64,000 nt of DNA, taken from Gemmatimonadaceae bacterium (lineage in GTDB: Bacteria > Gemmatimonadota > Gemmatimonadetes > Gemmatimonadales > Gemmatimonadaceae). Shown in pieces: positions 40,810 to 51,684 of this stretch. Positions within the stretch are counted from its first letter, which is position 1, and every line of letters begins with the position of its first letter. Location: the NCBI GenBank assembly GCA_035606695.1, contig DATNEW010000026.1, forward strand, positions 186,001 through 250,000. Direction: 5' to 3'. Made by a program: the position numbers and the translations under genes. Below the pieces are notes generated by a model that searched no databases, was not told the origin of the DNA, and saw only the letters and a list, made by a program, of their open reading frames with translations.

Positions 40810-42021
40810 GTGAACACGTTCGCGTCGCTCAGGCACCGCAACTTTCGGCTGTTCTTCGTCGGGCAATCGATCTCGAACACGGGCAATTGGCTCACCAACG
40901 TTGCCCTGACGCTGCTCGTGCTCCGGATTACGGGCAGCGGTTTCGCGGTGGGCGTGAGCGCGGCGTGCCAATACGGTCCGATTCTGATCATCACGCCGTG
41001 GGCGGGCGCGGTCGCCGATCGCTCGAACAAGCGGCGCGCGCTGCTGCTGACGCAGGTGCTGGAGATGATGCAGTCGTCGGGGCTCGCGGTGCTGGCGTTT
41101 CTCGCGCATCCGCCGCTGTTCGGATTGTACGCGCTCGCGCTTGCCGGCGGTGTCGTGCTCGCGTTCGACAATCCGCTGCGGCGATCGTTCGTCACGGAGA
41201 TGGTGCCGAAGGAAGATCTTGCGAACGCGGTGGTGCTCTACAGCACGATCGTCAATGTCTCTCGCATCTTCGGGCCCGCGCTGGCCGGACTGCTCGCCAC
41301 CACGCTCGGCTACGGGTGGTGCTTCACGATCGACGCGGCGACCTACCTCGCCGTGTTGTTCTGCCTCTGGCGCATGCGCGACGAGGAACTGCACCGTGAG
41401 CGGCATGATGACGCGGCGACGTCGAGCGTGCGCGACGGCGTGCGGTATCTCCTCTCGGTGCCCGTGCTCTGGATCAGCTTCGCGATGCTCGCGGCCGTCG
41501 GTATGCTCGCCTACAACTTCAATGTGGCGCTTCCGCTGTTCGTGACGCGCTCGCTGCACAGCAGCGAGGCAACGTTCACAATTCTCTATTCGGTGTTCAG
41601 CGTCGGCGCGGTCGCGAGCGCGTTGATCGTCGCGAATCGGCGGATGGTGCAGCTGCGGCACGTCGTGATCGGCGCCGTGGCGATGGGCGTGGCGATGCTG
41701 CTCCTTGCCGCGGCGCCCGGCGTGATGCTCGCCCTGCCTGCGGTGTTCCTCGTCGGGATGGGGAGCATTCTCTACATGACGTCGACGACGTCGATCGTGC
41801 AGGTGCGCTCGCGCCGGGAGATGCACGGCCGGCTGCTCGCGCTCCAGACGGTGTTCGTCGCGGGGACGGGCGTGATCGGCGGTCCGCTGTGCGGCTCGCT
41901 CGCCGATTGGCTTGGCGGGCGGGCGCCGATCATCCTTGGCGGGATCGTGTGCCTGGCGGCTGCCGTGTTTGGAGCCCTGGCATCTCAGACCGTAGGTGAA
42001 GGGGTAGGGTCAAAACAATGA
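40810..42021 (+). CDS. MFS transporter (EntS-like MFS_3 type)
   Basis: The 403-residue protein has about 12 membrane helices and the opening FRLFFVGQSISNTGNWLTNV characteristic of MFS_3 exporters. Motif-A-like GAVADRSNKRR follows helix 2, and NPLRRSFVTEMVPKEDLANA is the usual helix 4-5 loop. Relatives export siderophores, macrolides or other small molecules; substrate here is unknown. It starts at GTG 40810. The stop codon TGA at 42019 forms the first bases of the palindromic element that follows. Confidence 0.85.
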   Translation: MNTFASLRHRNFRLFFVGQSISNTGNWLTNVALTLLVLRITGSGFAVGVSAACQYGPILIITPWAGAVADRSNKRRALLLTQVLEMMQSSGLAVLAFLAHPPLFGLYALALAGGVVLAFDNPLRRSFVTEMVPKEDLANAVVLYSTIVNVSRIFGPALAGLLATTLGYGWCFTIDAATYLAVLFCLWRMRDEELHRERHDDAATSSVRDGVRYLLSVPVLWISFAMLAAVGMLAYNFNVALPLFVTRSLHSSEATFTILYSVFSVGAVASALIVANRRMVQLRHVVIGAVAMGVAMLLLAAAPGVMLALPAVFLVGMGSILYMTSTTSIVQVRSRREMHGRLLALQTVFVAGTGVIGGPLCGSLADWLGGRAPIILGGIVCLAAAVFGALASQTVGEGVGSKQ

Positions 42022-42280
42022 CCACGGATTGTGAACGGCGACAAACGCGGACGGGCACGGAGACGGCGTCAACGGCCGTCAACAGCCGTTAACTGCTGTC
42101 AACGACAAGAAGAAAAAATCCTCGGCCCGCTTCGACATCGACTCGGCCGAGGGCTTGTTATTCTTGTTTTCTAAATACCAGAATAATCACGGCTTCGCGC
42201 TCGACCGAAGTTGACTGCGGTCGACAGCAGTTCACGCCGTCTCCGTGCCTGTCCGAGCATGTCGCGGTTCACGGTCCGTG
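42019..42280. repeat. Long inverted-repeat element, family 2 copy 1
   Basis: The left arm (42019-42069) contains GGCACGGAGACGGCGT and the right arm (42234-42280) its complement ACGCCGTCTCCGTGCC; the arms match at most positions over about 50 bp. Inside lie 10-bp units (CAACGGCCGT, CAACAGCCGT, TAACTGCTGT) and a bidirectional terminator. It separates two convergent genes. A second copy is at 51430-51648. Confidence 0.85.
42111..42169. terminator. Bidirectional terminator inside the family 2 element
   Basis: CCTCGGCC (42120) and GGCCGAGG (42145) form a stem with AGAAAAAAT on its left and GCTTGTTATTCTTGTTTT on its right. On the minus strand it is a textbook terminator (stem plus six T) for the gene at 42308; on the plus strand it would end the MFS gene. 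Confidence 0.75.
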
Positions 42281-42307
42281 CTCCCTTTTTTTTCTCGCAC
42301 CCTCTCT

Positions 42308-45900: not shown

Positions 45901-45976
45901 GGTGCCCGCCGCGGCAGCGAGTGCAATAGTGCCGATACTGCCGGGCACTATTGCCACGCCTGCCGCTCTGGGCACC
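45901..45976. repeat. 33-bp-arm inverted repeat
   Basis: The arms start GGTGCCCGCCGCGGCAG and end with GCAATAGTGCC; the right arm is the imperfect complement (about 27 of 33 positions), with a 10-base loop. It lies 48 bases after the BTAD regulator stop and may act as a terminator or stabiliser. No T-tract follows. Confidence 0.7.
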
Positions 45977-51416: not shown

Positions 51417-51429
51417 AAAGTCCTCAATG

Positions 51430-51648
51430 ACCACGGACGACGTCGGACGTCCACGGATCGGCACGGAGACGGCGTTAAAACGGGTGAAGGGCGTTTGAAG
51501 TTCAAAACTCTTTTTTTAGAAAACCCTCAAGACGCTTCGCGCCGAGGGGCATCATGAGGGTTTTCTTAAAAAAGTCTTCCGACGGCAGTTGACGACAGTT
51601 CACGCCGTCTCCGTGCCCGTCCGTGGACGTCCCGATGTTGTCCGTGGT
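51430..51648. repeat. Long inverted-repeat element, family 2 copy 2
   Basis: The left arm (51430-51475) starts ACCACGGACGACGTCGGACG and ends GGCACGGAGACGGCGT; the right arm (51602-51648) is nearly its complement. Inside is a second stem (terminator at 51505-51580) and 10-bp units on the right (GACGGCAGTT, GACGACAGTT). It stands between the DUF1592-DUF1552 pair and the ankyrin operon, all on the minus strand. Confidence 0.85.
51505..51580. terminator. Bidirectional terminator in family 2 copy 2
   Basis: AGAAAACCCTCA (51518-51529) and TGAGGGTTTTCT (51555-51566) form a perfect stem; flanking CTTTTTTT on the left and AAAAAAGTCTT on the right extend it and give T-runs in both directions. It would end the DUF1592-DUF1552 transcript. 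Confidence 0.8.
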
Positions 51649-51684
51649 ACGCTTTTGTCGTTGTACACTCTCTCTCGTCAACAC

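Follow-up and report, generated by a model that had tools for sequence, protein, structure and literature searches.

Architecture of the two elements in the window

The window, by which we mean the whole 64,000-nucleotide stretch that was analysed, contains two copies of a palindromic element, here called family 2, both of which are intergenic and gene-less. Copy 1 adjoins an MFS-like ORF of 403 aa (40810–42021). The features are listed below; arm coordinates in the window equal the position in contig C26 minus 186000.

42019–42284, no strand: family-2 palindromic element, copy 1, whole (fold z = −11.3; both arms matched by arm model R1)
42019–42021, + strand: left end of copy 1, TGACCACGG, forming the TGA stop of the MFS-like ORF (ORF list)
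42021–42088, + strand: left arm of copy 1, ~10-bp units CACGGA..CGAC..CGGAC.. and then GGCACGGAGACGGCGT (model R1, E = 2.2e-13)
42070–42103, + strand: inner ~10-bp units of copy 1, AACGGCCGTC AACAGCCGTT AACTGCTGTC (sequence; profile over all copies)
42104–42169, no strand: core hairpin of copy 1, GACAAGAA..CCTCGGCC..GGCCGAGG..TTCTTGTT, terminator-like (fold)
42214–42284, − strand: right arm of copy 1 (model R1 match at 42215–42280, E = 2.0e-13)
42286–42293, + strand: T8 tract directly 3′ of the long stem of copy 1, possible intrinsic terminator (sequence)
51424–51652, no strand: family-2 element, copy 2 (arms at 51430–51491 and 51583–51648)

Both copies are real palindromes, as a preliminary description of this DNA had claimed. 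The motif GGCACGGAGACGGCGT occurs exactly in each arm of copy 1 (42054–42069, + strand; 42234–42249, − strand) and of copy 2 (51460–51475, + strand; 51602–51617, − strand). The predicted fold of copy 1 (42019–42284) has an energy of −155.9 kcal/mol, and the z-scores relative to shuffled sequence are −11.3 for copy 1 and −11.4 for copy 2. The last codon of the MFS-like ORF is the TGA at 42019–42021, that is, the first bases of TGACCACGG, which bears out the earlier statement that the palindrome starts exactly at this stop codon. The element ends in this family commonly take one of two forms, TGAC or TTAC, so the stop of the gene is supplied by copy 1 itself. The inner 10-bp units described for copy 1 are present as well. 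Two further claims held in part: copy 1 does contain an inner hairpin whose sides are A-rich and T-rich, but the core hairpin is different in most other copies, and copy 2 has the same layout in its arms but only roughly so in its core. A terminator scan of copy 1 matched at 42263–42280 plus tail, and the copy shows the intrinsic-terminator pattern of a GC-rich stem followed by a T-run (the T8 tract).

Elsewhere in the window, a 50-bp stretch (45912–45961) recurs with 96–98% identity at C31:60015, C26:170408, and C13:57898 of the same genome; possibly this is another short interspersed repeat.

A genome-wide family of inverted arms

In the genome that contains the window (5.9 Mb, 99% complete), GGCACGGAGACGGCGT was found 97 times at up to one mismatch (49 forward and 48 reverse matches, nearly always as inverted pairs), against 0 matches for the reversed control, so the palindrome is not limited to the two copies first noticed. 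An arm profile built from 66 arms detected 122 arms at E ≤ 0.01, or about 60 elements. The arm consensus consists of ~75 bp of decamers, starting with T(T/G)ACCACGGAC and running from ACCACGGAC to GGCACGGAGAC; in full, it reads T(T/G)ACCACGGACGAACGTCGGACAACGGCGGACAGGCACGGAGACGGCGT, followed by pseudo-palindromic 10-mers (AACTGCAGTC AACTGCCGTT), with conserved letters every ~10–11 bp. A search of named genomes for the exact paired 16-mer pattern gave no match.

As is typical of MITEs, the elements are gene-less and mostly 110–280 bp long, with inverted arms. Most measure 200–280 bp and have a strong core hairpin, about nine measure 109–126 bp and are without it, and some have two core hairpins. 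In one element (L030), GGTGTTAGC is repeated four times in tandem between the core hairpin and the right arm. No k-mer of 2–8 bases was common to both outer flanks above chance among 49 elements whose ends may be off by a few bases, and hence no target duplication was seen.

The possibility that the arms form a conserved RNA stem was considered and rejected. At outer positions, the two arms of an element agree somewhat better than arms of different elements (0.67 within versus 0.57 between). Agreement of the inner units is 0.35 within versus 0.40 between elements; these units therefore do not form a simple conserved stem.

Absence at matching sites in relatives

Genus mates contain 1–17 arms each, all matching the arm profile weakly. 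Relatives G004 and G005 both lack window copy 2 and the copy at C16:75.0 kb at the syntenic place, and G005 also lacks the copy at C16:73.5 kb at its syntenic place. The junctions of these missing sites are not base-exact because the flanks are only 70–80% identical. Deletion in the relatives could formally also account for the absences; we take the three absent elements to indicate recent spread of the family in this lineage. In G003, the MFS gene beside copy 1 is present, and the right side is non-syntenic.

Two genus mates have palindromes of their own. Those of G002 (L061–L067) carry the arm motif inside out, with GTCACGCCGTCTCCGCGCC outermost and CACGGA innermost, and G004 has CACGGAC decamer palindromes (L167, L168), for example one ending in TAGCACGGAC/GTCCGTGCTA.

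Location relative to genes

When genes were called from codon usage, every intact gene-less element of this genome fell outside them. For 60 of the 73 gene stops directed towards an element, the distance is at most 40 bp, and the share of convergent neighbours at elements (22 of 58) is twice that among all neighbours (34 of 183). On their outer sides, the elements have an A-rich left flank and a T-rich right flank. Such positions, flanks, and strong hairpins would suit a composed terminator or insulator that is selected at 3′ ends and multiplied by ordinary recombination, without a dedicated mover. We consider this an improbable origin of the family: three matching sites in relatives are without the element, the decamer arms far exceed the length needed for termination, the inner arm units pair no better within than between elements, and one copy encloses a nuclease gene (see below). 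The preliminary description had left the choice between a composed termination unit and a transposable palindrome, and copy number, restriction to the lineage, and the missing sites in relatives all favour the latter. Given the hairpins and the asymmetric flanks, the elements plausibly also end transcription, probably as a secondary role.

Association of inverted arms with GxxExxY genes

Only one of the ~60 copies carries a gene. At C29:82801–83377, arms ~500 bp apart (model R1, E = 1e-13 and 6e-13) enclose an intact ORF for a GxxExxY protein (TIGR04256, E = 6e-29) in which the D..ExK residues are present. MITEs have ends in common with an autonomous transposon; in family 2, the candidate for such a partner is this copy, whose GxxExxY ORF lies between arms of the family. 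It served as the starting point for a wider test of GxxExxY genes.

For 34 GxxExxY genes of the same taxonomic family, comparison of the two 350-bp flanks gave a mean inverted-repeat score of 44.9, with 22.4 for shifted controls. Gene-less pairs of the pattern CCACRGAG-N(1-3)-CACRGAG occur dozens of times per genome in many genomes of the taxonomic family, with a control near 0. This pattern lies ≤300 bp from a GxxExxY gene at 10 of 36 loci (0.4 expected). Of these 36, 16 were already familiar when the pattern was selected; the remaining 20 accounted for 4 cases. Palindrome-rich genomes have a GxxExxY gene in 30 of 33 cases versus 95 of 143 for other genomes (Fisher p = 0.003, uncorrected for phylogeny), the gene being absent in three repeat-rich genomes.

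The association extends to 80 GxxExxY loci of named organisms from Acidobacteriota, Proteobacteria, Planctomycetota, Chloroflexota, Bacteroidota, Verrucomicrobiota, Armatimonadota, and archaea. Among the 77 scorable loci, 70% exceeded the 99th percentile of shifted controls (Mann-Whitney p = 9e-30), and inward arms on both sides were found at 36 of 69 loci versus 0 of 394 shifted windows. At one locus (L190), near-identical inverted arms tightly enclose the GxxExxY ORF. The gene-flanking arms read TCACCAC(A/G)GAGACAC(A/G)GAG and are composed of ~10-bp CAC(A/G)GAG units.

The class of elements that we propose is defined by inverted ~10-bp CAC(A/G)GA units and a GxxExxY gene in at least one copy, and family 2 has both. 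Its arms (CACGGAC..GGCACGGAGACGGCGT) resemble those at gene loci elsewhere (CACAGAG) in unit style and motif; in sequence, only the single copy with a gene in this genome comes close. Since the family-2 arms share their construction with the inverted repeats on either side of GxxExxY genes, the GxxExxY nuclease is a candidate mover of the elements.

The GxxExxY protein

We take the GxxExxY family (TIGR04256/PF13366) to be small PD-(D/E)XK nucleases. The predicted structure (mean pLDDT 93) has a PD-(D/E)XK fold, and is nearest to the Cas4/RecB-like protein SSO0001 (Z = 9.4); it is also near the Hjc Holliday-junction resolvases (Z = 6.8), although similarity at that level may be one of fold alone. 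Among the weak Foldseek matches of model m37384c2003a7 is XisH (2okf, E = 0.29), which likewise has to do with DNA excision, as excision controlling factor of the fdxN element. Sequence searches against solved structures gave nothing meaningful (best E = 0.6, RelE), and an alignment of diverse GxxExxY proteins contained no stretch conserved enough to serve as a search query. The open-access journal literature searched on the repeat motif, PF13366/PDDEXK_3, and IVP repeats contained neither a report linking such arms with GxxExxY nor a description of these elements.

Inverted flanks of IVP genes and alternative movers

Genes for IVP (23S_rRNA_IVP, PF05635) are likewise flanked by inverted arrays of tandem units, here of 7–13 bp. 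At 33 IVP loci (L080, L081, L082, L114–L142), the mean inverted-flank score was 61.4 versus 21.7 for shifted controls, and 73% of the loci were above the mismatched 99th percentile; the unit sequences vary from locus to locus. The four IVP genes of the genome under study lie away from the window copies. At C9:157220–157856 (L083), an IVP gene is found ~100 bp from a family-2 palindrome.

As IVP genes have similar inverted flanks and are nuclease-free, the inverted architecture may be independent of the nuclease. Because these flanks, made of other units, occur without a nuclease, an alternative stays alive in which the palindromes are moved by an enzyme other than GxxExxY, either a TIR-associated Y1 transposase or one not yet known, and GxxExxY is a passenger or homing parasite. 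The T(T/G)AC ends of family 2 and the failure to find a target duplication fit such an enzyme, for IS200/IS605-type elements have such ends and make no target duplication. We nevertheless judge this alternative to be rather unlikely. The GxxExxY–arm link spans many phyla and is seen in 0 of 394 shifted controls, which argues against a passenger. A precedent exists in the REP and TIR repeat families that Y1 transposases mobilise (PMC3733652), but the GGGGWSAS of such TIRs (PMC3733652) was not seen in the family-2 arms, and Y1_Tnp had no match in this genome in a search that was positive in 5 of 14 control genomes.

The elements are also palindromic, extragenic, species-specific, and located at gene 3′ ends, as would be expected of REPIN-like doublets whose RAYT mover has since been lost. 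This origin is very improbable, as the ~75-bp arms are unlike GTAG-tagged REPs of 20–40 bp and no Y1 gene was found. With 0 matches to RAYT (Y1_Tnp, PF01797) at E ≤ 0.001 in a genome that is 99% complete, a RAYT/Y1 transposase was rejected as the mover.

Comparison with known systems

Family 2 is similar to bacterial MITEs (Correia/NEMIS, ERIC, RUP, Nezha) in consisting of short gene-less TIR palindromes between genes that are species-specific and absent in relatives. What sets it apart is that ~10-bp units in arrays make up its arms, a target duplication was not found, no parent IS is known, and the candidate parent encodes a PD-(D/E)XK nuclease rather than a DDE transposase. In TIRtrons and TIR repeat families, long inverted repeats enclose one small gene, for a Y1 HUH transposase (Di Nocera et al. 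2013, PMC3733652). Family 2 has in common with them that one small enzyme gene lies within long inverted repeats and that the genome also contains these repeats in gene-less form; a Y1 HUH enzyme was, however, not found here, and the enclosed gene is GxxExxY. Since neither this enzyme nor a target duplication was found, we do not file the element under MITEs or TIR repeat families.

REP/REPIN-RAYT systems also show palindromes at gene 3′ ends, lineage-specific expansion, and a possible terminator role, but family 2 has no RAYT, no GTAG tag, and much longer arms. Finally, the mobility of 23S rRNA IVS with IVP (S23) genes has long been suspected and is unproven (PMC4990558). In both these and the gene-bearing form, a long hairpin of inverted repeats carries a small ORF at its tip, whereas IVP is a four-helix bundle and classical IVS lie in rRNA, family 2 being intergenic and having another protein.

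Proposed mechanism and implications

On balance, we slightly favour the reading that copy 1 is a MITE-like mobile palindrome, a gene-less derivative of a GxxExxY-nuclease element class, with the nuclease as its mover. In its coding form, this class has a GxxExxY nuclease gene between arms of inverted ~10-bp CAC(A/G)GA(G/C)-type unit arrays. The nuclease would act in trans on the arms, either as duplex or as an extruded hairpin or cruciform, and would cut or resolve donor and target, after which repair would copy the arms into the target. Copies would persist mainly just 3′ of stop codons, where the long hairpin and the T-tract could terminate transcription. Against the nuclease as mover stand the presence of its gene in 1 of ~60 copies, the target duplication that was not found, and the three repeat-rich genomes without GxxExxY.

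More broadly, and as a tentative proposal that we hold with less confidence than the reading of copy 1, GxxExxY proteins may be the mobilisers of widespread decamer-array elements, the source of gene-less palindromes across bacterial and archaeal genomes, and may act on hairpins or cruciforms without classical transposase chemistry. TIGR04256 is a common family without known function, named by just two papers in the literature searched, and it thereby gains a testable role. The result would account for the interspersed palindromes of one class that many genomes contain, and it suggests mobile elements of a kind whose sole gene encodes a PD-(D/E)XK nuclease. It is also relevant to the long-standing problem of how IVP/IVS elements, whose inverted flanks are similar, move.
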